From positions 26,905-90,904 of the forward strand of contig JACPOW010000035.1 of NCBI GenBank assembly GCA_016191335.1: a stretch of 64,000 bases of DNA, read 5' to 3'. The notes under the pieces were generated by a model, which saw only the letters and a list, made by a program, of their open reading frames with translations, searched no databases and was not told where the DNA came from. This stretch comes from Elusimicrobiota bacterium (GTDB taxonomy: Bacteria; Elusimicrobiota; Elusimicrobia; UBA1565; UBA9628). Shown one piece after another: positions 11,814 through 50,483 of the stretch; the first letter of the stretch is position 1, and each line of letters starts with the position of its first letter. The position numbers and the translations under genes are program-made.

Positions 11814-13886
11814 CTATTTCGCCGTGAGGTTGAAGACCTGGTCCCAGTCGTCGGGCGGCAGGGCCGCGTAGTCCCGGGAGATGTTGAGATAGAGCTCGCC
11901 GGGGCCGTCCCCGGGCATCAGCTTCGCGAACTCCGTGAAGACGGCGAGGGATTCCTCGTACTTCTTGTCGTAGAAGGCCTTCACGCCCTTGTCCCAGACG
12001 GGCAGGGCCTTCGCCCACTTGGCGTCGAGCCGGCCCTTCTCGGCGAGGGGCTCGTACACCGGCACCGGCACGGCCTTGCCGACGACGCGGGCGCGCCCGA
12101 GGTAGCGGGCCTCGATCGCGCTCTTCGAGCCTTGATAGGTCGGCTCGCTGATGATGATGCTCGAGCCGAAGAACTTGTTCGCGCCCTCGAGGCGGGAGGC
12201 GAGGTTGACCTCGTCGCCGATCACCGTGTAGGCGAGCTTGCGCTCGGTCCCGGTGAAGCCGACGTTCATCTGGCCCGTATTGATGCCGATGCGGATCGCG
12301 GGGATCTCCGGCAGCCCCGGGTCGAGGTTCTTGTTGAGCTCGTTGATCGCCTGCTGGCAGTGCAGCGCGGACAGCACGGCGTCCTTCGCGTGGTCCTTGT
12401 TCTCCAGCGGCGCGTTCCAGAACGCCATGATGCAGTCGCCGATGAACTTGTCGATCGTGCCGCGGCGGTCGAGCATGACCTCGCTGAGCTTGGACAGGTA
12501 TTTGTTCAGGAAGGCCATCAGGGCCTCGGGGCCCATCTTCTCCGAGATGGTCGTGAAGTGCGCGATGTCGAGGAAGAGCACCGTCATCTCGCGCTTCTGC
12601 GCGCCGAGCTTGGCCTTCTCGGGGTCGTTGGCCAGCTCCTCGACGATCTCCGGCGAGACGAACTGCCCGAACTTGGCCTTGATCATCTGCTTCTCGGCGC
12701 CTTCGGTGAGGACGCGGTGCACGGTCAGGACGAGGAAGCTGACGAGGAGGGTCAGGCCGGGCGCGACGGGGTAGATCACGGTCCCGCGGCCCATCAGATG
12801 CAGGGAGCCGCCGAGCATCGCGGCGAGCACCGCCGCGACGGCGACCGCGCCGAGGGCGGGAGAGAGCGCGCGCAGGATGAAATAAGGCAGCCAGGCGGCG
12901 ACCAGCACGAGGACCAGCACGATCAGGCGGCTCGTGGCCTGGAGCGCGTCGCCGTTGAGGACGTTGTCGATGGCGGTCAGGTGGAACTCGGGCCCGGGCA
13001 TGTGGGAATTGAACGGCGCCGGGTAGTGGTCGAAGTAGCCGGTGGAGATCGAGCCGACGACGACGAGGGAATCCTTCAGCGCCTCCTTCTGCTCCTTCGA
13101 CAGCGTGTCCTTCACCAGGTCCAGCACGGAGATCGTGCGATAGGGCGAGTGGTTGACCTCGGTCGGCGGGCTGTTCGGATGCTTCAGCCATTCGAGAGGC
13201 CTGCGGAAGTTGAGGACCGGGATCGGCATCTGGTCGGCCGGGTTCTCCTTGAGGACCTGGTCCAGGGTCTTTCCCGTATAGCTCGCGATCGCCGCGGCGG
13301 GCAGGGACGTCGAGGGCTTGCCCGTCAGGATCGGGTCCTCGAACTCGGGGTTGAACAGCAGGAAGGTGCGGATGTGGCCGTCGTCCTCGAGGTGCTGGCC
13401 GATGCTCGGAGAGCCGAGGTACTGCGCCGTGGCCTTCAGGGGCTTGACCGCCATCTGGACGCGGACCTTGTCGGCTCCCTGAGGCTTCTCGGCGACGAAG
13501 AGCTGGACGACTTTGCCGTGGCGCTTGGCCGCCGCGGCGAGCTCCGCGTCGCCCTCCCGGTTCTCGAGGAACAACACGTCGAACACGACGGTCTTCGCGC
13601 CGAGGTCCTTCAGCTTCTCCAGGGCCTTCGCGTAGACCTTGCGCGGCAACGGGAAGCCGAGCTCGTGGACCGCGTCGTCGTCGATGGCGAGGAGGACGAG
13701 GCGGGGGTCGCCCGCCTTGATGCTCCCCTCGCGCAAGGTGAAGGCGTGATCGTGCCACACGCGCTCGACCGAGGCGAACAGGCCGTTGCTGGGGATGCCG
13801 ACGAGGAACGGGAGGTACGCGACCGCCGCCAGGACGCAGAACACCGCGCTGAAGCGTTTCGGGAAAGTTTTTCCGAGCAGGTTCAT
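11814..13886 (-). CDS. CHASE2 domain class III adenylate/guanylate cyclase
   Basis: 690 aa; CHASE2-like N-terminus, three TMs, cyclase core REMTVLFLDIAHFTTISEKMGPEALMAFLNKYLSKLSEVMLDRRGTIDKFIGDCIMAFWNAP, IRIGINTGQMNVGFTGTERKLAYTVIGDEVNLASRLEGANK. Confidence 0.95.
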   Translation of the reverse strand: MNLLGKTFPKRFSAVFCVLAAVAYLPFLVGIPSNGLFASVERVWHDHAFTLREGSIKAGDPRLVLLAIDDDAVHELGFPLPRKVYAKALEKLKDLGAKTVVFDVLFLENREGDAELAAAAKRHGKVVQLFVAEKPQGADKVRVQMAVKPLKATAQYLGSPSIGQHLEDDGHIRTFLLFNPEFEDPILTGKPSTSLPAAAIASYTGKTLDQVLKENPADQMPIPVLNFRRPLEWLKHPNSPPTEVNHSPYRTISVLDLVKDTLSKEQKEALKDSLVVVGSISTGYFDHYPAPFNSHMPGPEFHLTAIDNVLNGDALQATSRLIVLVLVLVAAWLPYFILRALSPALGAVAVAAVLAAMLGGSLHLMGRGTVIYPVAPGLTLLVSFLVLTVHRVLTEGAEKQMIKAKFGQFVSPEIVEELANDPEKAKLGAQKREMTVLFLDIAHFTTISEKMGPEALMAFLNKYLSKLSEVMLDRRGTIDKFIGDCIMAFWNAPLENKDHAKDAVLSALHCQQAINELNKNLDPGLPEIPAIRIGINTGQMNVGFTGTERKLAYTVIGDEVNLASRLEGANKFFGSSIIISEPTYQGSKSAIEARYLGRARVVGKAVPVPVYEPLAEKGRLDAKWAKALPVWDKGVKAFYDKKYEESLAVFTEFAKLMPGDGPGELYLNISRDYAALPPDDWDQVFNLTAK

Positions 13887-15000: not shown

Positions 15001-15056
15001 GCCGAGCTTCTTATAACCCCATCGATGGCTCGGCACAACGGGGCTACCGCCCCGTT
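15001..15056 (-). terminator. Two hairpins at the 3' end of the giant gene (possible terminator)
   Basis: AACGGGGC-TACC-GCCCCGTT at 15037-15056 (overlaps stop codon 15055-15057); GCCGAGC...GCTCGGC arms at 15001-15007/15028-15034. No clear U-tract. Confidence 0.4.
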
Positions 15057-37000: not shown

Positions 37001-40000
37001 GGGGTGCCGCGTAGGTCCACGGGTTCGTCGAGGTCGCCGGCACGAAGCTCGAGACGGCCACCCACGCCCCCCCGTCCCAGTACAGGTTCGGCGTGTCGGA
37101 GACGTCCTTGATCTCGAGATCGACGCGGAAGACGCCGGCGGGAGAGTCGCTCGAGGTGCCGCGCAAGGTGGCGAGCGGCCGCGCCGTGCCGTAGTTCGGG
37201 AAGGCGGCCATCGGCGTGGAGACCACAACGCTCGGGCCGCCGCGGTCGAGGACGAAATGCGAGGTCGTCGGGACCTCGAGGTTGCCGGCGTTGTCGAGCG
37301 CGTGGATGGCGATGCCGTACGCCGTGCCGTCGAGCTGGGTGATCGTCGGGGCCTGGTAGCCGAACATCGCGCCGGGGTAGGTCCAGGCAACCACGCCGGT
37401 GGAGCCCGCGACCTGGACCGGCAGCTGGGTCGGGACGTCGGGCGTGCCGGTGTTCCAGGCGTTGCCGTTCCAGTAGACGCTGCTGGCGCCGACGACGTAC
37501 CAGACGCGCAGGTAGTAGGTGTTCGCCAGCGACAGGTCCGAGTTCGAGGTGCCGGCGATCGTGTTCAGGTTCTGGATGAAGCCGGTGCCGGGCGGATCGT
37601 TGACGACGGACACGGGCGGCGTGTCGTCCACCTTGAAGTCGACGAGGCTCACGTTCTGCACGAAGGTCGAGGCCAGGTTGCCGGTGAGCGCGCCCGAGGA
37701 GGCGCGTGCCCGGTCGCGGGCGCGCGTCTGCGCGTGGAACACCTGGTCGCCGACGGGGACCCAGTCGGCGCCGGTGAACAGGGTGGACCAGGTCGCCGTG
37801 CCGGCGGTGACCGGCTGCCAGCAGCCGGGGGTCGCGCAGGCCGTCAGCTCGACCGTCGTCGAGGAGAACTTGGTGCCGTTGAAGTTGACGGCGCCGGTGT
37901 AGTAGTAGCTCGTCGGGCCGACCACGTACCAGATCAGGTTCTCGACGGACTGGACCGCGTCGTTGTCCACGTACAGACCGGCCTCGGCGTCCGCCGAGGT
38001 TCCCGTCAGCGCCGAGCCGCCGTTGAGCTGGCTCGAGCGGTAGGAGACGCCCTGCAAGGGCTTGGTGAACGCGGCGGAAGGAGCGGCCTTGTCCACGTTG
38101 AAGGTGCGGCTCGACAGCGGCGCCGTGAAGAGGGTCTGGGTGTTGCCCGCGTAGTCCACCGCGCGCGCGGTGATCGTGTACGGCTTGCCGGAGGTCAGCA
38201 AGGTCGTCAGGTTGGCGTTCGAGTAGGTCCACGGGTTCGTGCCCGTCGCGACGAAGAAGTTCGGGCAGGCCGCCGTGAAGGTCTGGAACGCGTTGCTCCA
38301 GCAGATGTCGTTGTGCGGCTCGCGGATCTGCAGCTCGACGCGCTGGACGTCGGAGAACTTGTTGTTGGCGTTGGCGCCGCCCGGGTCGGTCGAGGTGCCC
38401 GAGATCGTGGCCAGGTTCAGGTACACCTGCCCCGACGACGGCTGGCTGAGGATGCCGACGGGCGGCGAGGTGTCGAAGACGAAGGTGAAGGCCGCCATCT
38501 GGCCCTCGACGGTCGTGTCGTTCCCGGCCTTGTCCCCCGCGTGGGCGAAGAGCGAGTAGTCCTCGCCGTCCAGGAGTTTGGCCCCGGCCAAGGTGGTCGT
38601 GCTCCAGGTGAAGGGGCCGGTCCCGGAGAAGTTCGGGGCCTCGATCAAGATCTCGGAGAGACCGGGAGCGAAGGCCGTCCCGTTCCAGTAGTCGCCCGTC
38701 ACGGAGTTCTTCAGGCGCACCCTCACGCCGCTGAAGAGCACGGACGGAGGCTTCACGTTGGCGCTGTCGTCCGACGTGCCCGAGATCGTGGGCAGGACGC
38801 TCAAGCAGGCGTCGGTCCCCCCGCAGGGGGCGGAGGCGGGATTGGTGAAGCCGGACAGCGGCGCGGTCCGGTCGAAGACGAAGGTGCGCGTGAACGGCAC
38901 GCCGGGCAGGCCGGCGCTGTTGAGGGGCGTGACGGTCAAGCTGTAAGACGCGTTGTGCACCGCGTACGGGGCGGACAGCGGCTGGCTCCAGTTCTGCGGA
39001 TTGCCGGCCGTGACGGTGACGAGGGTGAACGTCGACGCGTCGTCGGTCCAGGCGGCGGAAGGCTCGTACCAGTAGCTCGTCGGCGGGGTCAGGCGCTGGA
39101 GGGCCAGGCGCACGCCCCCGCCGGCCAGGCGCAGGTTCTGGCCGGTGCCGATGATGGTGTTGACCGGCGCCGCCGAGTTCGGACCGTAATGCTTGGGGTC
39201 CGGGCCGGTGGGCTGGGTCAGGATCAAGCTCGGCTCGGGCGCCTGCAGGTAGAACTCGATGTCGAACCCGGCGTGCGCGGTCTCGACGTTGCCCGCCTGG
39301 TCGACCGCCCGCGCGGTGACGGTGAAGGTCGAGAAGTTGTCGAAGGCGGTGGTCGTCGCGTCGTAGGTCCAGGCGTAGGTCGTGCCGGTGATCAGGCCGC
39401 CGATGACGCCGGAGGAGAGCTCGACCGCGCCCGCCTGCCAGGCGTTGCCGTTCCAGTAGCGGCCGACGTTGGGGCCGGCGGTCTCCTTGATGGTCAGGCG
39501 CACGCCCGCCAGCTGGCCGGGGATGTCGTCGCGCGCCGTGCCGTAGATCACGCTGACGCCGGTGTTGTAGAGGACGGGGGCCGTGGCCACCGACACGGGC
39601 TCGGCCGCGTCATAGACGAAGCTCTTCGTCGAGGTCACGACGTCGAGGTTCCCGCCCCGGTCCTGCGCGCGCACGACGACCCGGTAGACCTTGGTCGAGG
39701 TCAGCGCGCCCGCCGGCAGGGCGAAGGTCCACGTCCCGCTCGACTGGCCGACGAAGGCCGCCGTCGACCAGACGGGCGCTGCCGAGGCGAAGGACGAGCC
39801 GTCCCACCAATCCGTCGAGGTCGTGATCTGGGCGACGGCCACGGTCACGCTCGTCGCGGCGATGCCGGCCTCGAACTCGCGCGTGCCGGGGGCGCACAAC
39901 GGGACGTTCAGGATGCAGAAACGGTCCTCCGCGGTGCCCCGGACCGTTACGGCGGAGGAGCTGACGAAGGCCCCCTCGTTGGGCCAGACGACGGCGCTGG

Positions 40001-43000
40001 CGGGAGTGCTCAGGTCCACGACGAACGCGTACGACGGCGGCACGGCCTCGACGTTGGTCGCGAAGTCCCGGGCCTGGGACTGGACCGTGTACCGGTACCC
40101 GTCCACGAAGGTGCCCGCGCCGAAGATCTTCTTCCACGGGTTCGTCCCGGGACCGTCCAGGGCGTCGTCGAAGCCCGGGTCGACGCCGGCCCAGCCTCCC
40201 AGGATCTGCCAGTAGAATCCGTCGGAGCGTCCCAGTTTGTAGCGAACCATGCTGACGCCGGAAGGCTGGCGCACGCCGAAATACGGGTCGTCGCTCGACG
40301 TGCCCCCGATGGTCGTCAGCGACGGCAGGTTGACGAAGAGCGGCGGCAGGTTGGTGGCCGAGACCGGCGCCGTGTTGTCGTAGGTGAACGTGATGCCCCC
40401 GACGTCGTTGTCGAGGTCGGCGTTGCTCGGCGTCGCGGAGACGTTTCCGGCCGCGTCGACGGCGCGCGCCCAGGCGACGAAGCGCGTCGAGTCGAGGAAC
40501 GCGAGATTCGGGTAGGCCAGGCTCCAGACCGACAGGCCGGAGGCCGTGCGCCATTGGCCGTACTTCGTGCCGACCACCGTGTCCCAGTCGCCCAAGGTGT
40601 TCGTGTTCCCGCCGTTCCAGTAGCCGGCGCCCGTCCCGCCGCCGCCGATCTGCTTGGACTTGAGGATGATCTGGACGCCGCCCAGCCCCGAGGCGCCGGA
40701 CGCCTGGTCGTTGGCCGTGCCCGCGAGCGCGATGAGCCCGGCGAGATTGAGATAAGCCGAGGCGGTCGGGGCCGTCGCCACGACGACGGGCGCCTGGGAG
40801 TCGTAGCGGAACGCCGAGCCGGAGCCGACGGGCGTCGGCCCCTGCTGGAGGTTGGTCGCGACGTCGAGCGCGTCCACGACGACGCGGTAGGTGGCGCTCG
40901 ACTCGAGCATGCCGGCGGGCACGGCGGTGGACCAGGCCAAGGACGCCAGACCCTGGAGCGTCGTGCTCGCCACCTGGGTCCACGCGGAGCTCGGCGGAGC
41001 CGGAGGCGGGTCGGAGATCGTTCCGTCGAAGGCACTCGTGTTCCAGTTCCACCAGCCGATCGAGGCGGCGCCGCCGTCCGTGTGGCGGATGGCCATGTAG
41101 GTCTTGGACACGCCCGAGGGATTGGCGCCGGGGTCGGTCGCCGCGCCCGAGAACGCGCTCAAGGCATTGACGGCCGAGCCGTTCGCCGGGACCGACACGG
41201 TCGAGGTCGGTCGGGCGAGGTCGTAGGTGAACGGCTGGGTCTGGGCGCCCGCCGAGGCGCCGGGCAGCATGCCGTTGGAGAAGTTGACCGTGTTGCCCGC
41301 GAGGTCGCGCGCGTACACGAAGACGGTGTAGTTCACGCCGTCGGCGAGCTTGCCGGCGAACTCGGGAGCCACGTACTGCCAGCTCGTTCCGCCCTTGTAG
41401 ACCTGGGTCGACCACGCCACCGAGGACTGGCTGGTCGTGAAGTCCCGGTCGGCCTCGTTCCACCACACGTTCTGCGCGGCGCCCGAGGAGACGCCGACCC
41501 AGACCTGGGTGATGCCCGAGGCGCCGGTGCCGACGTCCGAGATCGCGCCCCACGTGTAGGTGCTGACCCGCGTGGACTCGGCGTTGTTCGAGTAGGGAGG
41601 GTTCGCCGGCGGGCTGGCCGGGAACGAGATCGAGATCGCCGGCGGGGTCACGTCGTAGTGGACGCCGTAGACGGTCACCGGCGACTGGACGTTGCCGACC
41701 AGGTCGGTCGCGCGGGAATAAAGGAAGTAGAGCTGGTTGTCCGCGAACGCGCCGGTCAGGTCGTTGTAGGTCCAGTTCAGGCCCGCCAAGGTCGCGGTCG
41801 TCCAGTAGGGCGTGGTGAACGTATAAGAGGAACCGGTCCAGTCCGGGCCGGTGACCGGGTTCGTGGTGATGCGGATCTCGACCTTCTGCGTGCCCGACAG
41901 GGAGCCGTCGTGGGTGCCGGCGAGGGCGGTCAGCGCGTTGACGTAGGAACCGTCGACGATGCCCGTCATCGTCGAGATCGGCGGCGTGCCGTCCACGATG
42001 AAGGAGGTGACCGCCGACGGGGCGCTCAGGTTGCCCGACGACTGGGAGACGCTGCCGTCGGCCAAGGTCGAGGCGTCGTGAGCGGTCGCGAACGTATGGT
42101 AGATCTTGTCCGTGGCGCCTCCGGCGCCGCCCGCCAGGTACTGCACGGGGGTCGGGACCAGCGGCAAGGTCCAGCTCGTGCCGTTGGCCTGCACCGAGCT
42201 GACCGTCGTGGAGAAGCCGGCGCCCGTCCAGTAGTAGCTCGTCGGGCCGATGACGTGCCACAGGAGGACGTCAATGCCGGGGACGAGCAGGCCCGCGGAG
42301 GTCCCGTTGATCAGGGGGTCGCTGGCGGTCCCGTCGATGCCGATCGCCGAGGCGGAGGCCGGCGTGTAGGCGGCGAGGCTCGGCTGGGTGATGGCGACCG
42401 TGGGCGCGTCCTTGTCCACCGTCATCGTGAACGAGGAGCCCGCCGCCGTGAACTCGGTCTGGACGTTGCCGGCGACGTCGACGGCTCGCACCGCGATCAC
42501 GTACTCGCCGCTGACCAAGGCGATGTCGAGGTTCGCGTTCGTGTAGGTGAAGGTCGCCACGCCGGGCGCGGACTGGTAGAACCCGGTCGCGGGCAGCCAC
42601 GCGGCGGGCAGGGAGCAGACGGTGCCGAAGTTGACGCCGCCGAAGCAGGAGCCGTTGGCGTTGCGCTGGATCTTCACCTGGACGGTGGCGATGCCCGAGG
42701 GCGAGCTGTTGGAGTCGCCGAGCTTCGGGTTCGGGTCGCGAGCGTTGCCCGAGATGGTGGCCAAGGTGTTGATGACGGCGGTCGGCAGGGGCACCGTGAT
42801 CGCCGCCGTCGGCAAAGAGATGTCGTAGCGGAACACCGTGCCGACGCCGGTCCCGGTGTTGCCCGCCTTGTCCGTCGCGATCAGGTTGACCCGGTACTGG
42901 TAGCCGTCCTCGAACATCATCTCGCTCGTCAGATAGGTCGTCGTATAAGTGAAGAGGCCGCCGCCCTGGTCGGAGCCCACGAGGTCGTCGCCGGGCGCGG

Positions 43001-46000
43001 CGACGAAGGTCGAGGCGTTGACCGCCCACTCCTTGGCGTCCTTCATGCGCACGACGCGGAAGCGCACGCTCGAGCTCAGCAGGCTGTTCGGCTGGCCGGG
43101 CGCGGACGGGTCGTTGACCGTGCCGGACAGGGAGGACAGCTGCCCGGCCTTATGCGCGGCCATCGACGGGTTCGTCACCGCGTTGACGGGCGCCGAGGAG
43201 TCGATGACGAAGGTCTGCGTGTCGAGCACGCCGGAGCAGCCGCCCTCGACGGAGTTGCAGACGCGCAGGTCCACGGTGTAGTTGGCGTTGTTGCGCCACG
43301 GTCCGGGGAAGGCGTACAGCCAGTCGGTGCCGACGACGTTGATCAGGGCGCCGGTGGGGCTCGTCACCCAGGTGCTGACGGCGATCCAGGGGTAGGCGGC
43401 GTTGTTGTCGAAGTAGAGGTTGGCGTCGGTGTCCTTGATGCGGAGCTGGGCGTGGGTGTTGCCCACCGCCACGCCGGTGAGCGAGGTCAAGGTCGTGGGC
43501 TGGTAGAACGGGAAGGTCGCGTCGCCGATCGAGGGCTTGACGACGCTGCCGGAGGAGCCGGGCGCCACGATGCGGACGCGGACGTGGTTGCTGTTGTTGG
43601 CGGCCCCGGAGTTCCACTGCTCGACGTTGTTGACGTTGTCGGTCGAGCGCGCGATGATGTGGTAGAACACGCCGACGCTCCAGGCCGAGACGGCGTTGGT
43701 GTTCAGGCTCCACGACGCGCCGGTCTTCTCGAACCAGTTCAGCGCGCCGGTGAAGGAGTCCGCGCCGGTCGGGCCGGTCGCCGACGGGCCGGTCAGACAC
43801 TTCGTGAAGTCCGGGCTGCCCGCGCTGTCCTGACAGATCGCGATGAAGGTCTTGCCCAGGCCCGAGCCGGTGCCCGGGTCGCCGGCGTTGCCGTCGATGG
43901 AGGCGACGGGCGCCGTGATGTCGCTGCTGTTGACCGGGTTGGTGATGACGGTCTGAGGCGGGGCCTTGTCGACGCGCACGCAGCGCACGCCCGTGATGGA
44001 CGGCGAGACGGTGTTGCAGTCGACGGGGGTGGCCGGGACCTCGGTGTTCGGCTTCCACACGCCGCCGGAGGTGACGGCGGAGTCCTTGCCGCGCACGCGC
44101 ACGCGGTAGGTGCCGCCGTTGGCCATGGATTCCCACAGGCCGCCGGGCACGCCGATCTGGGTGTTGTAGGTGTAGCTCGAGGCGATCACCGTCATCGCGC
44201 GGAACGCGGCCGGGGTGCCGCAGGTCGCGCCGAACGACGAGCCGTTCCAGCACTGGCCGCTGCCCGTGTCCTGGACCTCGGTCTCCACCTGGCAGATGTT
44301 CGGCGAGCCGCCGGGCCAGCCGCCGGGGCCGCCCGTCATCGAGCAGGACGTGTCGTTTCCGGCGCCGGGGCCGGAGACGGGCAGGTCGAAGGACCTCGTG
44401 ATGATGAACGGCAGGTCGAACCCGGTGTGCGACGAGTACCAGACGTTGTTGAAGCTCGTCGACGGAGCCACGAGGGTCGAGCTCGGGGCCTGGACCTCCC
44501 AGTGGAACACCGCCTTGAGCGTGATCGTCGAGCTCACGTTGGTGTAGGTGGAGACGACGTTGTCCTGGCCCCACACATACAGCTGATAGGTCTCCGTCGA
44601 GCGCGAGTCCCAGAACGAGGCGTTCAGGTCGCCGAGGGGCGAGAAGCTCCAGTTGTTTCCCGAGAACGAGGTGATGACCGGGTCGGCGCGCGCCGCGAGC
44701 CAGCTCGGGCCGGAGGCGTTGAACCACTTGCCGTCGGACTCACGGCGGACGCCGACGCCGACCTGGAACATGCCGGCGGGGTTCTTGCCGATCTGGTTGA
44801 GCTCGTCGACGGCCTGGCCGGTGATGGCGTTGGGAAGGTCGGCGGAGTCGCCGAACGTCGTGCCCGAGGAGACGCTGATGCCCGAGATCGTCGGCGGCGA
44901 GGTGTCGTAGATGAAGCCCCAGTCGTAGGAGCGCAGGTTCCCGGCGACGTCCGTGATCTCGTAGTGCAGGAAATAGTCCTGGGCGTTGCGCCAAGGGATG
45001 CTCGTGGCGAGCGCGACCTGGAACGGGATCGTCGTCGTCGAGGTCGCGTTGTTCCAATAGTAGGTCAGCTCGGGGTTCTGGAACGGCCAGGAGTCGCCGG
45101 CGACGGCGAAGGCGTTCTGGTCGTACTGGGTGAGGCCGAACTGGCCGTTGTAGCGCAGGTTGTAGCGCACGCTCGCGATGCCCGAGCCGGTGCCGTCGTT
45201 GAGGTGCAGGCGGATCGAGGTCAGGGGGTTCGAGGACTGGTACAGGCCGACCGAGGAGTTGGTCCCGATGACGACCGAGGAGTTGCTCAGCGCGTCCGTG
45301 CTGATGAGGACCTTCGCGATCGTCGGCGGGGTGTTGTCGAGGCGCAGGTAGTAGCGCAGCACCGGGGAGACCGCCGTCCCCGTGGAGTTGCCCGCGGAGT
45401 CCGTCGCGTAGGCCTCGATGCGGTAGGTCTTGCCGTCAGCGAATTGGGCGGCGGCGGCCGTGAGGTCCCAGGACCAGGGATCGGAGGCGTCCGCCGCGCT
45501 CAAAGTCTGGGTGAACTCCTTATATGCGTCGCTCGGCGCGATCGCGGCGAAAGCCAAGGTGCCGGGATCGAGCCAACGGGAGACGCTCTCGGCCGCGCCC
45601 GGCGCCAGTTCGGCCACGCGCACGTAGACGTGCTGCTGGTCGAGGTTGTCGGCGACGTTGTCCCGGATCGCGCCCGTGATGCCCGCAAACCCGGTCACCC
45701 AGGTCGCCGCGCCCGAGCTCAGCGCCAACCCGGCGGGCGCCGTGATCGTCACCGTGGGTATTTGCGTGTCGTAGATGAAGGTCGTGTAGGCGCTCGTGCC
45801 CGAGGTGGACTGGTCGATCTTGCGGCCGGCCGCGTCCTTGGCGAAGCCGGAGATCGCGTACTTTCGTCCGTTCTGCCACTGCGGCAGCTTGATCGAGGTG
45901 GCGTTGTCGATCTGGACGTTGGTGGCGCCGATCTGGCCGGCGGCGAAGACCGTCTGAGGCGTGTACGGCGCGGCGGTGGACAGCCACACCGGCACTCCCG

Positions 46001-48854
46001 GCTGGCCGCTGAGGACGCCCGCGGTCGTGAAGGCGACCCAGGTCTCGGTCGAGCCCGTCGGGATGCCGATGTCCTGGACCATGATGCTGCTGACCAGCAC
46101 GCCCGTGCCGAGGTCGGAGAACTGGTAGGAGATGGCGGTCACGCTGTTCGTGGCGCCCGAGACCGGCAGCTGCAAAGCCGCGGTCGGGGCGAAGCGGTCG
46201 AGGTTGATGCCGACCGTGCTGATCTGCACGGGATAATAAGGATCGCCGACGCCGCCGTCGCGCGTCTGCGCGCGCACCGCGAGCTCGTAGGGGCCGTCGT
46301 CGGGGATGTTGGCCGTGTTCGAGGTGTCGAACGGGAAGGAGTAGGTGGTATTGCTCGCGGTCAGGGCGGCGAGCTTCCATTTGTCCTCCTCGGTGACGAA
46401 GCCGGAGGTGGTCATCACCGAGCCGTTCCAATTCTTGCCCGTGGCCAGGTGGGTGATGCGCACCGCGGCCGAGCTGATCCCGGTCTGGCCGAAGTTGTTG
46501 AAGCCGACGGTGCCGGCGATCACGCTGAAGCCGAGGTTGTTGCCCGGTCCGGGCGAGGTGACCGAGGCCGTCGGCACGGTCACGTAGAAGGTGCCGCCCG
46601 CGGAGAGCGCGGTGCCGGAGGACGGATTGGTCACCAGGATGGTGTACTGGCCGCCCTGCGCCGCGGTCGAGATCTTAAGGTAAGTCGTCAGTCCCAGGTT
46701 GGTGTAGGACATCGAGGCGACGGTGATCTCGGGCTCGAGGTAGCCGTCCTGGCGCTGAAACTGGACCTTGACCGTGTAGGAACTCGGCACGATCGCCCCG
46801 GTCAGACCGGTCCAATTCATGAAGTCCGTGCCCGTGCTCTTGATCGGACGGCTCAGGAGGGTCGTGCCGTCGTTGCTTAAGAGCGTGCCGCCGGAGACGA
46901 AGCCGTTGAGGCCGGCGTCGAAGTCGGCGACACCCGTGATCGTCGGCGCGTTCAGGCGCAAGGTCAGGGGCTTGTCGGAGCCCGCTCCGCCGTTGCGGTC
47001 GTACTTCGTGGGATATTCCTGGCCGTCCGGCATGGCGACGCGCAGATCGTAGTCGAAACCGGCATTAACGAAGGAAGAGAGCGTGATGAACGCGCGGATG
47101 TTCGAGGTGGTGACCCAGGTCACCGAGCCCACCGTGATCTCGCTTTGCGAGCCGGAGCTCGACAGCACGTAGAACTTCGGCGTGGGCGTACTCGTCGTCG
47201 GGATGAAGTTGGTGCCGACGATATCCAGCTCGTAGGTCGGACGTGTCAGGAATACGTTCGCCGGCAGCGTCGAGACCGAGGTCACCGTGGGGATCGGGTA
47301 GGTCGAGGTGATGATCTTGTCGAAGTAGGTGCCGGTGTCGTCGTGCCAGATCACCGGGATCGGATCGGGGTAGACGGCCCAGAAGCCGGGCTTGGGATTG
47401 TCGATGTTCGCGCCGTTGCGCCAGGACACGATCCCGTCGCATTCGTTGTTGGCGGTCGTGGTCATGGTCGAGCGGCAGGCGCGGTAGAACAAAGTGTCGT
47501 TGTTGGTGCTGCCCCAGATGGCGTAGAAGTCGTTGCGGTTGCTCTGGCCGCCGCTGCGGTACAGCATCGTGACCGCCGGGTTCTGCAGCGGAAAGTTGCC
47601 GTCGTCGACCGTCCGCCCGGCGAGGACCATCGTGCTGGTCACCACGCCGGTCGCGTTGGCCTTGCGGCGATAACCGATGTGGCCGCCTGTCGAGACGAAG
47701 ACGATATGCGCGACCGGCGAATTGACCTCATTGATGATGCTGAAGGAAAAACCCTCGGTATTCATGCTGACGCCGGCGACGGCATCGGTATTGTTGTAGC
47801 CGTGGATGAGGTTATCCATATCGAGCATCACGCCGCCGTTAATGTCATAGTTTTGAGTCGTGTCCGGGTCGGCGCCATTCATGCTCCTCAGTTTGAGGGT
47901 CTGCGAGCTGATCCAGATGAGCGCGCCGTCACCCTGGTTGAGGGTCGTGGCGCCCGGGTCCACGTTGTTGAGGCGCGCGCCGAGGATATAGTTGGGCGTG
48001 CTGTTGTCGACGACCGGTGCGATGGACAGGCCCGCCGGGTTGAGCACGCTCGGGTCGCCGCCGTCGCCCGCGCCGGTGCCGTCGTTTTCGTTGCAGAACG
48101 CATAGACGTTCGGGTTGCCGTTCGTGTAGTCGCTGAGGTCGGGCAGCAGGTTGGTCACGCCGATAGCGCCCATGTTGTTGTTGGCGAGCAGCGCGTTGTC
48201 GGTGTTGCCGAACACCGCCACGTGGGAGCCGTTCGTGGAGCTCGAGTAGGCCACGACTGCGGGCTTACCGCCGCCCTGGATGTCCCAAACCGTGGAGTTT
48301 GTGAGGTTGGATCCGTACTGGCAGATCGAGTTGGCGACGCGCAAGGTCATGCGCTGGCGGCGGATGCCGGAGGCGGCGTCCCAGGTGATGGTGCCGTTCG
48401 AGTTCAAGGTGCCCCAGCGCATGAACACGCGGTTGCCGCTCGAGTCGCCCATCGCGAGGTCGGCGGACGGGGCGCTTCCGGGCGCGTCGGCGGCCGCGTC
48501 GCCGGCGGCCACATAGACGCGGTTGAGGCTGGCCACGTACCAGATGCTGGGCTCGCCGGCCGCGGCGTCGGGGGCCGTCTGCGAAAACGGGAATACGTCC
48601 AAAGGCGCCGTCCATTCCTGGCCGTCCACGGAGAAGCGCCACACGGCGCGGTCGGAGCTGACCTCCCGGAAGAACGACCAGTAGCCCGTCCCCGGCACGT
48701 AGATCACGTTGCGCTGGCCGCCGTAGGCGGTGCTGGTGCCGGCCACGCCGAGCTTGCGCTGGGCGGCGGAAGCGCCCAAAGTCAGCGATAGCGCCGCCAC
48801 CCCTGCCAAGGCCAGGCGTCCCAGGCGCGCCGTCAGGGAGAGCCGTTTAACCAC
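31050..48854 (-). CDS. Giant modular surface protein, N-terminal part (signal peptide, propeller-like domain, then about 40 Ig-like modules)
   Basis: GTG start at 48854; signal peptide VKRLSLTARLGRLALAGVAALSLTLGASAA; modules with GTA-D...YWNG...W...RA-D-AGN signature. Out-of-frame tail from about 31.2 kb (SRTSSPTGSARTPSLTTPRPRRSASPG...) is not module-like. Confidence 0.9.
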   Translation of the reverse strand: MVKRLSLTARLGRLALAGVAALSLTLGASAAQRKLGVAGTSTAYGGQRNVIYVPGTGYWSFFREVSSDRAVWRFSVDGQEWTAPLDVFPFSQTAPDAAAGEPSIWYVASLNRVYVAAGDAAADAPGSAPSADLAMGDSSGNRVFMRWGTLNSNGTITWDAASGIRRQRMTLRVANSICQYGSNLTNSTVWDIQGGGKPAVVAYSSSTNGSHVAVFGNTDNALLANNNMGAIGVTNLLPDLSDYTNGNPNVYAFCNENDGTGAGDGGDPSVLNPAGLSIAPVVDNSTPNYILGARLNNVDPGATTLNQGDGALIWISSQTLKLRSMNGADPDTTQNYDINGGVMLDMDNLIHGYNNTDAVAGVSMNTEGFSFSIINEVNSPVAHIVFVSTGGHIGYRRKANATGVVTSTMVLAGRTVDDGNFPLQNPAVTMLYRSGGQSNRNDFYAIWGSTNNDTLFYRACRSTMTTTANNECDGIVSWRNGANIDNPKPGFWAVYPDPIPVIWHDDTGTYFDKIITSTYPIPTVTSVSTLPANVFLTRPTYELDIVGTNFIPTTSTPTPKFYVLSSSGSQSEITVGSVTWVTTSNIRAFITLSSFVNAGFDYDLRVAMPDGQEYPTKYDRNGGAGSDKPLTLRLNAPTITGVADFDAGLNGFVSGGTLLSNDGTTLLSRPIKSTGTDFMNWTGLTGAIVPSSYTVKVQFQRQDGYLEPEITVASMSYTNLGLTTYLKISTAAQGGQYTILVTNPSSGTALSAGGTFYVTVPTASVTSPGPGNNLGFSVIAGTVGFNNFGQTGISSAAVRITHLATGKNWNGSVMTTSGFVTEEDKWKLAALTASNTTYSFPFDTSNTANIPDDGPYELAVRAQTRDGGVGDPYYPVQISTVGINLDRFAPTAALQLPVSGATNSVTAISYQFSDLGTGVLVSSIMVQDIGIPTGSTETWVAFTTAGVLSGQPGVPVWLSTAAPYTPQTVFAAGQIGATNVQIDNATSIKLPQWQNGRKYAISGFAKDAAGRKIDQSTSGTSAYTTFIYDTQIPTVTITAPAGLALSSGAATWVTGFAGITGAIRDNVADNLDQQHVYVRVAELAPGAAESVSRWLDPGTLAFAAIAPSDAYKEFTQTLSAADASDPWSWDLTAAAAQFADGKTYRIEAYATDSAGNSTGTAVSPVLRYYLRLDNTPPTIAKVLISTDALSNSSVVIGTNSSVGLYQSSNPLTSIRLHLNDGTGSGIASVRYNLRYNGQFGLTQYDQNAFAVAGDSWPFQNPELTYYWNNATSTTTIPFQVALATSIPWRNAQDYFLHYEITDVAGNLRSYDWGFIYDTSPPTISGISVSSGTTFGDSADLPNAITGQAVDELNQIGKNPAGMFQVGVGVRRESDGKWFNASGPSWLAARADPVITSFSGNNWSFSPLGDLNASFWDSRSTETYQLYVWGQDNVVSTYTNVSSTITLKAVFHWEVQAPSSTLVAPSTSFNNVWYSSHTGFDLPFIITRSFDLPVSGPGAGNDTSCSMTGGPGGWPGGSPNICQVETEVQDTGSGQCWNGSSFGATCGTPAAFRAMTVIASSYTYNTQIGVPGGLWESMANGGTYRVRVRGKDSAVTSGGVWKPNTEVPATPVDCNTVSPSITGVRCVRVDKAPPQTVITNPVNSSDITAPVASIDGNAGDPGTGSGLGKTFIAICQDSAGSPDFTKCLTGPSATGPTGADSFTGALNWFEKTGASWSLNTNAVSAWSVGVFYHIIARSTDNVNNVEQWNSGAANNSNHVRVRIVAPGSSGSVVKPSIGDATFPFYQPTTLTSLTGVAVGNTHAQLRIKDTDANLYFDNNAAYPWIAVSTWVTSPTGALINVVGTDWLYAFPGPWRNNANYTVDLRVCNSVEGGCSGVLDTQTFVIDSSAPVNAVTNPSMAAHKAGQLSSLSGTVNDPSAPGQPNSLLSSSVRFRVVRMKDAKEWAVNASTFVAAPGDDLVGSDQGGGLFTYTTTYLTSEMMFEDGYQYRVNLIATDKAGNTGTGVGTVFRYDISLPTAAITVPLPTAVINTLATISGNARDPNPKLGDSNSSPSGIATVQVKIQRNANGSCFGGVNFGTVCSLPAAWLPATGFYQSAPGVATFTYTNANLDIALVSGEYVIAVRAVDVAGNVQTEFTAAGSSFTMTVDKDAPTVAITQPSLAAYTPASASAIGIDGTASDPLINGTSAGLLVPGIDVLLWHVIGPTSYYWTGAGFSTTVSSVQANGTSWTLPLVPTPVQYLAGGAGGATDKIYHTFATAHDASTLADGSVSQSSGNLSAPSAVTSFIVDGTPPISTMTGIVDGSYVNALTALAGTHDGSLSGTQKVEIRITTNPVTGPDWTGSSYTFTTPYWTTATLAGLNWTYNDLTGAFADNQLYFLYSRATDLVGNVQSPVTVYGVHYDVTPPAISISFPASPPANPPYSNNAESTRVSTYTWGAISDVGTGASGITQVWVGVSSGAAQNVWWNEADRDFTTSQSSVAWSTQVYKGGTSWQYVAPEFAGKLADGVNYTVFVYARDLAGNTVNFSNGMLPGASAGAQTQPFTYDLARPTSTVSVPANGSAVNALSAFSGAATDPGANPSGVSKTYMAIRHTDGGAASIGWWNWNTSAFDGTISDPPPAPPSSAWTQVASTTLQGLASLAWSTAVPAGMLESSATYRVVVDALDVATNLQQGPTPVGSGSAFRYDSQAPVVVATAPTASAYLNLAGLIALAGTANDQASGASGLGGVQIILKSKQIGGGGTGAGYWNGGNTNTLGDWDTVVGTKYGQWRTASGLSVWSLAYPNLAFLDSTRFVAWARAVDAAGNVSATPSNADLDNDVGGITFTYDNTAPVSATNLPPLFVNLPSLTTIGGTSSDDPYFGVRQPSGVSMVRYKLGRSDGFYWQILGGWAGVDPGFDDALDGPGTNPWKKIFGAGTFVDGYRYTVQSQARDFATNVEAVPPSYAFVVDLSTPASAVVWPNEGAFVSSSAVTVRGTAEDRFCILNVPLCAPGTREFEAGIAATSVTVAVAQITTSTDWWDGSSFASAAPVWSTAAFVGQSSGTWTFALPAGALTSTKVYRVVVRAQDRGGNLDVVTSTKSFVYDAAEPVSVATAPVLYNTGVSVIYGTARDDIPGQLAGVRLTIKETAGPNVGRYWNGNAWQAGAVELSSGVIGGLITGTTYAWTYDATTTAFDNFSTFTVTARAVDQAGNVETAHAGFDIEFYLQAPEPSLILTQPTGPDPKHYGPNSAAPVNTIIGTGQNLRLAGGGVRLALQRLTPPTSYWYEPSAAWTDDASTFTLVTVTAGNPQNWSQPLSAPYAVHNASYSLTVTPLNSAGLPGVPFTRTFVFDRTAPLSGFTNPASAPCGGTDACLSVLPTISGTSDDSANVKPPSVLFSGVRVRLKNSVTGDYWNGTAFAPGLSEILIEAPNFSGTGPFTWSTTTLAGAKLLDGEDYSLFAHAGDKAGNDTTVEGQMAAFTFVFDTSPPVGILSQPSSGQVYLNLATISGTSTDPGGANANNKFSDVQRVELQIREPHNDICWSNAFQTFTAACPNFFVATGTNPWTYSNANLTTLLTSGKPYTITARAVDYAGNTQTLFTAPLSSRTFNVDKAAPSAAFTKPLQGVSYRSSQLNGGSALTGTSADAEAGLYVDNDAVQSVENLIWYVVGPTSYYYTGAVNFNGTKFSSTTVELTACATPGCWQPVTAGTATWSTLFTGADWVPVGDQVFHAQTRARDRARASSGALTGNLASTFVQNVSLVDFKVDDTPPVSVVNDPPGTGFIQNLNTIAGTSNSDLSLANTYYLRVWYVVGASSVYWNGNAWNTGTPDVPTQLPVQVAGSTGVVAWTYPGAMFGYQAPTITQLDGTAYGIAIHALDNAGNLEVPTTSHFVLDRGGPSVVVSTPMAAFPNYGTARPLATLRGTSSDSPAGVFRVDLEIKDVSDTPNLYWDGGAWVAVSSFVPATSTNPWTYAAPPWIDNKAYQLRAKAVDLAGNDSGFGLPVSFKYDVNKPSTTITVPGQSFYPLSWQGTPLSGTALDWVNLPASEAKSGLTKVEIAIRNSGGTGDYWQGGGFNPAPAYRTVSTTTADPASWTYPPSNPAGDTLPAWSDGEQYRVDLRATDKAGNVEADVTKFFTFDAFAPTTTIVRPIDQSYATGFVLSSGTYSETVSPPGLQILVAVRDPLGAFWNGAAFVSYNPATCWRPAAIHVSSWTFVDSALAAAMTLNAVPRTYEVFARGIDGAGNDNRGSVEPTVGTGKAMRVDYFAPTSGFTYPANNTALTGGVTPILGTADDQALAATKGVGLLEVKLKAVQIDSVNTRRYWDGVGWNIADQPFNLPTTLGGAPQTVQTFQSQGAAINDGNFWDGYRYEVISRAADLQGFTDTVYSTTTFVVDRSTPSAAFDTPLHASYISTTTLTLSSGTFTEPLVAPGLIASGINLVRVQIEDVSDQAAPAHAIPGGLRYWDGLGWQAGAISTTAVVHASSWSLTALPTDWVRGDASPNGRQYAVRVFAADLAGNTGVFPNYMVGLATITFDGTPPTSGITIPTDGLDTTSLASIIGTAVDFKINSSSSDVRAVFVSVFAENTGNGDPFAGLYFNAALNNWSPSVVWNPTTYNPGSGEWQFNSATINANLFVGSYYVINSSASDRAGNASPLPTAGQPAYSRVRFLPPPAVTAITSPVSLQFYNALNALAGTANGVTSSVELQVKRADTGECWGGGAGFNWVPCLVDNGINTRVVTPSGGNWSYPPGGEFMPDWSAVNNTTFTVKATGINYAAVRETPFQLRQFNIDRSSPVSSVSFPTVGAFLAVPPTLTGATLDQFGANGAGIKNVKIQLKRTDNNFYWDQLASTWTVAVAQSTAAYAPGTNSWSFNSIVSTLTWQDGLSYTLEVFAEDKAVGAATGNTEVPAAPVTFAYDSTKPLVTVVTPPDAGAPNRQKLTVPATIAGTASATAPNSVRKVQIRVLNDSNVYANPAAGLSFNQINGDLAWFDATYAVDWTSWSVSSAVPFLNGSTYTIVARSQNQAGTFSVPYSSRTLVYDVLTPESGVTVPANGSVVKTLPAITGTAADFPAGNPGVVSEMFARLKRLDDGKYWDGFGGWNPAIVDLNIGQGVVVYVSSWNFVSGNIPVPGPGQLISGVSYYLTVAGKDNAGGGGNTEAWDSPRGSTFTFDNTPPLAGIIGPKDGSFSNSMPSFNGTSFDNVAVSTVMLSILDLAGGQCYNPATNAFNQPCPAAWFGAQGTVGAWSFAFPSQPWVHAQEYVLRSSATDIATNVQTAISSAAFRFDTDAATAAVTVPAAGALGPQIASIAGTATDAPAGISYLKLAISSGAGLGNWYDGSVWTAGAPTFFTTSTYVLGASDNWTWNYPTLADGQLYLLRARTLDKAGNQRDQNFNFRFDSSSPTATVAIPVDGGYRTGGFAITGASSDPDPDGGGPRAATNVSTVAVSIERLATNLCYVYGAGFTVPCPNFVPASGLPGAWTYTPTPNPYTTGESYSVIARAQDNAGNTQDVFANGVSSNTFTYNTATPTVGVTVPSTLRRSDLSALAGTANDAIPTSLAKVQVRVTRTTGINRHSNPGGAHPFDLDPATQGDAAWFDAASVSNPLWTNWTLSSGLPWVSGESYRVEARAINQAGTYSTTYSTQTTIYDTEAPYTDVRLPVAFSTVSALPQVTGTAYDLPLGNWGAVFNIRLRLTRLTDGWYWNGAGWTGLPTELTTSEGLKVHVSSWTLALNLPPSTDNPTTGLQNGVSYYMNVSGVDDALAVGNPEAFYDPVKASTFTVDLAGAVAGFTAPSPYSVISTLAKIRGTATDALAGVSTAGQIEIGIIENGPNNACWNGTIAGGTFTAAACASPGVPNWFAITGGDRGGLYSVPSTFWEVNAPPLTSQFGYKVWVRARDNATPSGNYTAPASRTSSPTGSARTPSLTTPRPRRSASPGPRSPTRRPIPGCTTTAARRPSPP
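31125..31199. repeat. 75-bp direct repeat copy 1 (adjacent to frame change)
   Basis: CGGTGACGCCGACCGTCGGGGTCGCGGTGTTGTAAG(G)GAAGGTGTTCGAGCTGACCCCGTTGGCGAAGACGTCCT; one mismatch with 32330-32404. Confidence 0.92.
32330..32404. repeat. 75-bp direct repeat copy 2
   Basis: Same 75 bp as 31125-31199 with T for G at one position; 1205-bp offset. Confidence 0.92.
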
Positions 48855-49662
48855 GCACCCTCTTCAGCGCCTCGCCCGCTTCATGCCGTACGTCGGGATC
48901 GGCGTCCTTGGCGGCGGCCTTTAACGCCACGCGGGCGGGCAAAGCCGTCCGGCCCATGCGGCCGAGCGACGCGGCGGCCGCGGCGCGCACGATGGCGACA
49001 GGATCGGAGAGAGCAGCCATGAGGGGCTCAACCGCCCCCCCCCCGCCGACCTCGCCCATAGCCGCGCAGGCAAAGGTCCGAACCACGGGATCGCCGTCCT
49101 TGGCCGTTTTAACGATGGCCGGCAAGTGAGCCTGGGCGCCCTTCGCGGCCTTGGCCAGCGCCGTGCCGCAAGCGTTGCGGGAATTTTCGACCTTCAGGCA
49201 GCGCAGAAAATCCGGGATACGGGTCTGGGAAGCGGGCTTGGCGGTCCGCGCCAAGGCAGTGCCGGCCTGCGACCCCAAAACGGGGTCGTCCAACAGCCCC
49301 AGAAGCGGAGGAACCGCGGCGTCCCCGATGCTTTCGATCAACTGCAAAATGCGTTCGCGATGGTAGCGGTTGCGCATCTCCCCCACCAAGGCCGGAACGG
49401 CTGCGGCACCCCGCGCGAGCGTTTCGTCGCGATAGGCCAACCGGCGACCCGGGTCACGGTCGGACAGGCCGCGCACCAGTTCCTCAGGCGTCATGGTTTT
49501 GGCCGAAACGACAACGGCCGCATCCGGGATCACGCCCGCCTGCGCGCGCGTATAAGAAAGGGCGCACGCCAAAAAGAGCATGGACGCTGCGGTCCATGCG
49601 CTGTTTCGCGTGCGCGCGTAATAGGAAGCGATCGAAGACGCAATCCACCCAAGGCTGGTCAT
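48847..49662 (-). CDS. Exported HEAT-repeat protein
   Basis: 271 aa; hydrophobic N-terminus, HEAT-like units (DGDPVVRTFACAAMGEVGGGGAVEPLMAALSDPVAIVRAAAAASLGRMG); RBS-like AGAGGG before ATG; 8-bp overlap with giant gene. Confidence 0.85.
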   Translation of the reverse strand: MTSLGWIASSIASYYARTRNSAWTAASMLFLACALSYTRAQAGVIPDAAVVVSAKTMTPEELVRGLSDRDPGRRLAYRDETLARGAAAVPALVGEMRNRYHRERILQLIESIGDAAVPPLLGLLDDPVLGSQAGTALARTAKPASQTRIPDFLRCLKVENSRNACGTALAKAAKGAQAHLPAIVKTAKDGDPVVRTFACAAMGEVGGGGAVEPLMAALSDPVAIVRAAAAASLGRMGRTALPARVALKAAAKDADPDVRHEAGEALKRVRG

Positions 49663-49786: not shown

Positions 49787-50347
49787 TTAACAGCGGAGGA
49801 CTTCGATTGAGCTTTGGCGGGAAAGGGACGGCGTAAGGCGGTATCCGTGGCGTCGACAGAAGGCCACGGTCACGGCCGAGGAGGCCAGGAGGAGCATCCA
49901 GAGGACCGAGATCTTGGGCCCCCCTCCCGGCAGGCCGGGAAGCAGCTCCGGCAGGGCGAAGGCGGCGGCGGCCAGGCGGAAGGCGGCCCCGGCGTCGGCC
50001 AGGAGCTCGAGCGCGGACAGGATGGCGCGGGCCTTGGGCAGCGAACTGGTGAAGGCGTTCTGGGCCGCGCGGGTCACGGCCGCGCCTTTCAGGTCGGAGA
50101 GGACCTGCTCCCGGGTGACGGGGCGGCCCGCCTCGTCGCGGACGTCGAGCCCGTACTTGTTCTCGATCGCGGCCCGGGGGTCGACCCCTTGGGCGTCCAG
50201 GCCGGCCGCGGTCTCCGCGCGGCCGGTCGGGGCCAGCATCAGGAGGGCCAAAAATAGGCCCGGCCCCACCAACCATGGAACCCCTCTGTCCCGTCCATGA
50301 TAAGCAAGGGCCGAGCGAAATCGTGCGCGCACGCCGTGTATCAGCAT
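49787..50347 (-). CDS. Small exported/membrane protein; real start may be about 20 codons downstream
   Basis: Hydrophobic signal LVGPGLFLALLMLAPTGRAE and C-terminal TM + CRRHGYR. No SD at the annotated ATG; AGAGGGG precedes a TTG/GTG start further in. Confidence 0.6.
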   Translation of the reverse strand: MLIHGVRARFRSALAYHGRDRGVPWLVGPGLFLALLMLAPTGRAETAAGLDAQGVDPRAAIENKYGLDVRDEAGRPVTREQVLSDLKGAAVTRAAQNAFTSSLPKARAILSALELLADAGAAFRLAAAAFALPELLPGLPGGGPKISVLWMLLLASSAVTVAFCRRHGYRLTPSLSRQSSIEVLRC

Positions 50348-50350
50348 GTT

Positions 50351-50442
50351 TGGTTTCGGTAGCCAGGCGACCTCGGAGTTCTTCGAGGCCCTTCGCTTTG
50401 CGCCCCGCCCTCGCGAACGGTTTGCCGGTTTATCGCTCCAAC
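50351..50442 (-). ncRNA. GEMM-I (cyclic-di-GMP-I class) riboswitch
   Basis: Minus-strand GUUGGAGCGAUAAACCGGCAAACCGUUCGCGAGGGCGGGGCGCAAAGCGAAGGGCCUCGAAGAACUCCGAGGUCGCCUGGCUACCGAAACC: matches GEMM-I hallmarks GGCAAACC, P2 CCGUUC-[GCGA GNRA loop]-GGGCGG, GRCGCAAAGC, P3 stem CCUCG/CGAGG, terminal CUACCGA. Confidence 0.85.
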
Positions 50443-50455
50443 GTCCGACCTTCGG

Positions 50456-50483
50456 AGTATAACAGGCGCCGTTTTATTGTCAA
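50456..50483 (-). promoter_or_regulatory. Sigma-70-type promoter for the riboswitch transcript
   Basis: Minus strand TTGACA (50483-50478), 16-bp spacer, TATACT (50461-50456); predicted start lies just upstream of riboswitch P1. Confidence 0.8.

Follow-up and report, generated by a model that had tools for sequence, protein, structure and literature searches.

A predicted c-di-GMP-I riboswitch in front of a giant surface-protein operon in Elusimicrobiota, with a covarying terminator hairpin that also occurs apart from the aptamer

Among the described riboswitches of the c-di-GMP-I (GEMM-I) family, RF01051 (Vc2, Cd1, Bc2), Cd1 has an OFF arrangement in which aptamer and terminator coexist, whereas the two folds of the pilM ON switch are mutually exclusive (PMC9262584). 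Bc2 of Bacillus thuringiensis is an ON switch for the collagen adhesin Cap (PMC4933901). Short RNAs derived from riboswitches, such as RZ from the SAM-II riboswitch (PMC9373788) and SreA, are a further point of comparison. The locus analyzed here lies in a 64-kb stretch of DNA (the window) from an MAG of Elusimicrobiota, a little-studied phylum without good genetics. It resembles the RF01051 riboswitches in the sequence and fold of its aptamer, in the bases that contact the ligand, in controlling an envelope or adhesion gene and in using an intrinsic-terminator platform; it differs from them in its terminator, which is conserved as an RNA element in its own right, has a near-invariant loop and exists apart from the aptamer, and in its operon, whose giant product falls in the 10,000-residue class. 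With Bc2 it shares a GEMM-I aptamer and terminator placed 5' of a surface protein, but it belongs to another phylum, uses a different platform and is predicted to act as an OFF switch. A literature search, mostly outside subscription journals, found no report of this kind of riboswitch in Elusimicrobia. What is new is the terminator, a covarying RNA element that is absent from Rfam and persists without the aptamer. The explanation we favor, as the more probable one, is that a c-di-GMP-I riboswitch controls the giant surface-protein operon by transcription termination, as an OFF switch of the Cd1 type. Such a switch would link c-di-GMP directly to the production of proteins that are among the largest in bacteria and whose regulation is mostly unknown. 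All evidence presented is computational.

The sole Rfam match in the window was to RF01051 (cmscan, 50436-50355 on the minus strand), which scored 54.4 bits (gathering score 35) and covered the model at full length (positions 1-87 of 87). The promoter ahead of it combines TTGACA (50483-50478), a 16-nt spacer and TATACT (50461-50456), matches the consensus at 11 of 12 positions and has TG ahead of the -10. It was the single promoter-like site in the scanned stretch (0.1 ± 0.3 in shuffles), and TTGAC-spacer-TATACT was retained in nearly all relatives having the locus. The aptamer starts about 20 nt 3' of the -10 and so sits, as is usual for riboswitches, within a 5' leader that follows a promoter. 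An earlier, sequence-only reading of this DNA had proposed a GEMM-I riboswitch behind a strong TTGACA-N16-TATACT promoter heading the giant-protein operon, and had named an Infernal search against RF01051 as the check. That search was run and gave a significant match, the promoter was found at the position given for it with an extended -10, and the arrangement is conserved in relatives; as far as sequence comparison can do so, these results confirm the element as a genuine GEMM-I riboswitch in front of the operon. The same reading had ended the control region at 50351; aptamer and promoter stand, and the end does not, since the terminator hairpin at 50321-50250 belongs to the region too. That hairpin and its separate conservation had been missed. 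Features are listed in Table 1.

Table 1. Positions of the leader elements and genes in the window
Feature	Position	Strand	Evidence or remark
-35 hexamer TTGACA	50478..50483	(-)	promoter scan; present in almost every orthologous locus
Extended -10 element TGTTATACT, predicted start ~50449	50456..50464	(-)	promoter scan; retained in relatives
P1 5' strand UUGG	50438..50441	(-)	able to pair with CCAA 50353-50350; from sequence; similar pairing in relatives
c-di-GMP-I (GEMM-I) aptamer, RF01051	50355..50436	(-)	54.4 bits, E 7e-8; orthologs in order
P2 3' strand with junction GAGGGCGGGGCG (proposed antiterminator)	50401..50412	(-)	pairs with 50317-50306; swap test, folding
Motif X, 22-bp covarying hairpin, loop CGGGAYAGAGGGGU, U-tract; predicted terminator and expression platform	50250..50321	(-)	
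Motif X loop segment GGGACAGAGGGGT	50280..50292	(-)	sole exact copy in genome
Terminator U-tract UAUUUUU	50250..50256	(-)	
Small secreted protein; 186 aa when read from ATG 50347 (uncertain start)	49787..50347	(-)	C-terminal -LRC conserved
HEAT-repeat protein, probably exported	48847..49662	(-)	Pfam E 7e-23; hydrophobic N-terminus
Giant surface protein gene, Ig-like domains, ~11,270 codons	15055..48854	(-)	frameshift-split; intact in relatives
CHASE2 + adenylate/guanylate cyclase gene	11814..13886	(-)	usual gene after promoter and motif X in GEMM-less genomes

Promoter, GEMM-I aptamer, small secreted protein, HEAT protein and giant gene form a conserved unit in the order and the wider class: the three genes follow, in series, the orthologous aptamers across genera and families of the order, and a further two families of the class have them too (G226; G233/G234). 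The relatives gathered on the basis of the giant protein are Elusimicrobia MAGs. All three downstream genes named by the earlier reading (186-aa, HEAT and giant) are present, but a second ORF continues the giant gene, and the frameshift that splits it had been missed. The two giant ORFs (31050-48854 and 15055-31089) encode 5,934 and 5,344 aa and meet at a frameshift near 31.2 kb. Because the first has an out-of-frame tail, the second starts in mid-domain and relatives have single frames of 8,007-14,139 aa (intact frames of 11,265 codons in G017, 11,356 in G020, 12,135 in G007, 14,030 in G011 and 14,139 in G048), the two are evidently one gene split by a frameshift, which may be either an assembly error or a real mutation; the gene of the relatives is intact. 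All domains that Pfam recognized in the giant protein are Ig-like. The 186-aa protein and its orthologs, from several families, are highly variable, yet almost all terminate in -LRC (49787-49800 in the window), and the codons of this tripeptide change synonymously, so that the C-terminus itself seems conserved.

Across the order, GEMM-I was found under strict filters in 43 of 56 genomes; as these are MAGs, absences may be gaps. A profile of the conserved part of the giant gene matched 26 of the 56, all of them GEMM-I-positive (26/43 against 0/13 GEMM-I-negative genomes; Fisher p = 7e-5, uncorrected for ancestry). Loss of GEMM-I through lost c-di-GMP synthesis was ruled out, GGDEF being kept in 56/56 genomes.

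The hairpin downstream of the aptamer, here called motif X, consists of 72 nt including its U-tract and has the build of an intrinsic terminator with a 22-bp covarying stem. Across 16 orthologs, 98.6% of cells were paired and 8 pairs had changed on both sides; the covariation score was reached by 0 of 500 shuffles, paired cells and double changes each exceeded all or nearly all shuffles, and pairing was halved when the partner columns were slid by one. With 36 sequences, 97.7% were paired and double changes occurred in 10 of 22 pairs. The loop was invariant in these 36 except at the Y site and for one A/G exception, an invariance that is partly ascertained, most of the sequences having been found through the loop pattern. 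That pattern occurred 36 times in the 56 genomes, compared with about 5 times for its reverse. A covariance-model search of Elusimicrobiota genomes added G006, G019 and a degenerate G001 copy to the loop-pattern finds. Strong matches (E below 1e-14) were obtained in 35/56 genomes of the order and in G226, G233 and G234, with one copy per genome except for two in G016, and marginal scores in G001 and a few other members of the phylum. Comparison with 4227 Rfam models matched no family (a more lenient search of the leader gave, apart from RF03167 at the aptamer, che1 at E 4.9, a chance match), which ruled out motif X as a second aptamer copy or a known Rfam RNA. No copy was found in IMG/VR viral contigs, and no long perfect complement to the loop was found elsewhere in the genome. 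A stock terminator scan of the stretch did not list motif X because the loop exceeds the limit of that scan.

Promoter and motif X occur without the aptamer in eight genomes (G016, G019, G021, G025, G038, G050, G051, G054), generally just 3' of purA; in G021 the contig ends before the promoter. Neither GEMM-I elsewhere nor a giant gene was found in these eight. The distance from promoter to hairpin is some 15-65 nt in GEMM-less genomes, and the whole transcription unit of promoter and motif X measures only 75-130 nt. A CHASE2-cyclase-like or HEAT-like gene follows on the same strand after roughly 25-120 nt in 7/9 aptamer-less copies (checked with Pfam for G025); the gene that comes next in G019 and after the second G016 copy lies on the opposite strand. 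On a PurA tree the aptamer label changes five times, four of these changes being forced by well-supported branches. Since distant families have aptamer, hairpin and operon together, repeated loss of the aptamer and giant operon, with promoter and motif X kept, is the simpler reading. That motif X was apparently kept, with compensatory changes, after this loss argues that it has a role beyond terminating the giant operon. Sister species, some with aptamer and operon and some without them but sharing this promoter and hairpin, form a natural series in which the relation between a riboswitch platform and an independent RNA element can be tested.

As to what that role might be, we put forward tentatively that motif X represents a new regulatory RNA class in Elusimicrobiota, acting either in trans or as a protein- or ligand-sensing attenuator, and that it was joined to a c-di-GMP aptamer which it outlived in several lineages. 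If this is true, c-di-GMP decides between a small RNA and an 11,000-residue surface protein. Both forms of the proposal concern motif X and are compatible with the riboswitch explanation. In the first, which we regard as possible at somewhat below even chances, motif X provides a second input, in tandem with GEMM-I, by acting as an attenuator whose loop binds the protein or ligand sensed. The same-strand CHASE2-cyclase-like or HEAT-like gene behind most aptamer-less copies, together with a near-invariant, purine-rich loop that resembles a binding site, points in this direction, while the opposite-strand neighbors of the second G016 copy and of G019 speak against it. Its corollary, that motif X alone controls the CHASE2-cyclase gene in GEMM-less genomes, is held equally tentatively.

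In the second form, which seems to us a little less likely again, motif X is a small trans-acting RNA, released by riboswitch-induced termination and made constitutively in GEMM-less genomes. The short promoter-hairpin gap there leaves little besides the hairpin, motif X is single-copy in all genomes but one, and riboswitch-derived sRNAs such as RZ provide a precedent; as with RZ and SreA, termination induced by the ligand would yield a short structured RNA, although here trans action is hypothetical and the hairpin, unlike those RNAs, also stands alone in aptamer-less relatives. Against it, a target search found none and most copies have a same-strand gene downstream. Order-wide searches of the 56 genomes gave no Hfq and a single genome with CsrA, counts that weigh on the same side. 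They also ruled out motif X as an Hfq-dependent sRNA and, with the G006 loop lacking GGA, as a CsrA sponge or CsrA-binding RNA.

For the riboswitch itself, transcription termination as the mode of switching is fairly strongly indicated and the OFF direction moderately so. Transcription would start shortly 5' of the aptamer, at the strong extended -10 promoter. If c-di-GMP is bound while the aptamer is being synthesized, the aptamer would stay folded, motif X would form and RNA polymerase would stop at the U-tract after ~200 nt; in the ligand-free RNA, the 5' arm of motif X would instead be taken up by pairing with the P2 3' strand and the junction next to it, termination would be prevented and the 186-aa, HEAT and giant proteins would be made. 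In a stratified swap test, only partly corrected for relatedness, native aptamer-terminator pairing reached -20.65 vs -19.73 ± 0.26 kcal/mol, and a fraction of 0.0004 of permutations was as good (0.0068 within genus, 0.0024 among the rest). Swap controls with the aptamer 5' part and the P3 3' strand showed no native advantage. When the window leader was truncated before the 3' arm, the terminator 5' arm paired with the aptamer at 0.83. The antiterminator pairing was supported by folding in about half of the leaders and fell below 0.2 in 13/31 truncated leaders (e.g. G029, G031, G034, G048, G049, G011, G012).

The chief alternative on direction, an ON switch in which c-di-GMP binding blocks the terminator as in Bc2 and high c-di-GMP induces the giant protein, has that switch as a precedent and would suit the usual sessile programme; we consider it unlikely, as aptamer and motif X have no common strand and can coexist, which is the Cd1 OFF arrangement and unlike pilM (PMC9262584), and as the co-selected pairing disrupts aptamer and terminator together. 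Speaking against control by termination alone, the 186-aa frame may, in the genus of the window, begin ahead of motif X, at ATG 50347, so translation may also matter.

The contact bases G20, A47 and C92, numbered after established GEMM-I structures, are all canonical in the alignment (GGCAAACC, CGCAAAGC and CUACCGA), the window aptamer having G at the first position (GGCAAACC) and A at the second (CGCAAAGC). RF03167 (c-di-GMP-I-GGC), a family of the same clan, scored the window aptamer at 52.3 bits, under its gathering score of 59, and its consensus carries G47 (CGCGAAGC) where the window carries A47, which together ruled out the GGC variant. The window's own genome has four GGDEF domains with GHxxGD and GG[DE]EF, a fifth with GD at the specificity site, two weak tandem GGDEF matches within one protein, and five PilZ matches. 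In this genome as in those with A20 aptamers, every GGDEF domain inspected at its specificity site has the c-di-GMP-type Asp. Canonical contact bases and c-di-GMP-type enzymes together strongly suggest c-di-GMP as the ligand. The earlier reading had left ligand choice uncertain over a departure from Vc2 just 5' of GGCAAACC; the departure is present but lies outside the ligand-contact positions, and the choice is narrowed by G20, A47 and the GGDEF Asp. Recognition of 3',3'-cGAMP or another dinucleotide is very improbable: the change to A at position 20 linked to cGAMP recognition (PMC6274999) does occur in a few relatives, at the window-orthologous locus of G233 and G234 and at other GEMM loci of G048, G009 and G010, but the window has G20, which ruled out GEMM-Ib, a class needing A20, and the Asp is found in the A20 genomes as well. 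At L172/L173, upstream of motif X, the orthologous aptamer of G233/G234 reads AUAGCAAAACC, with A20, and the GGDEF domains read look c-di-GMP-type.

GEMM-I is present in three copies in the window's own genome. The copy on contig 79 heads a gene array with MotA- and MotB-like members, and that on contig 82 lies 5' of a CsgG/FlgO-like gene. The contig 79 type forms a second class (L053 9452-9531 and relatives), with an upstream hairpin-like conserved element, GGATC-n-GGGGTTGG-n-GATCC, and a terminator-like hairpin seemingly downstream, inside signal-peptide codons. A third class (L054 6005-6093 and relatives) has GGCACACC where the window copy has GGCAAACC, and an upstream GTGAATTTAC/TGTTAGACT pattern unlike the sigma-70 promoter of the window's copy.
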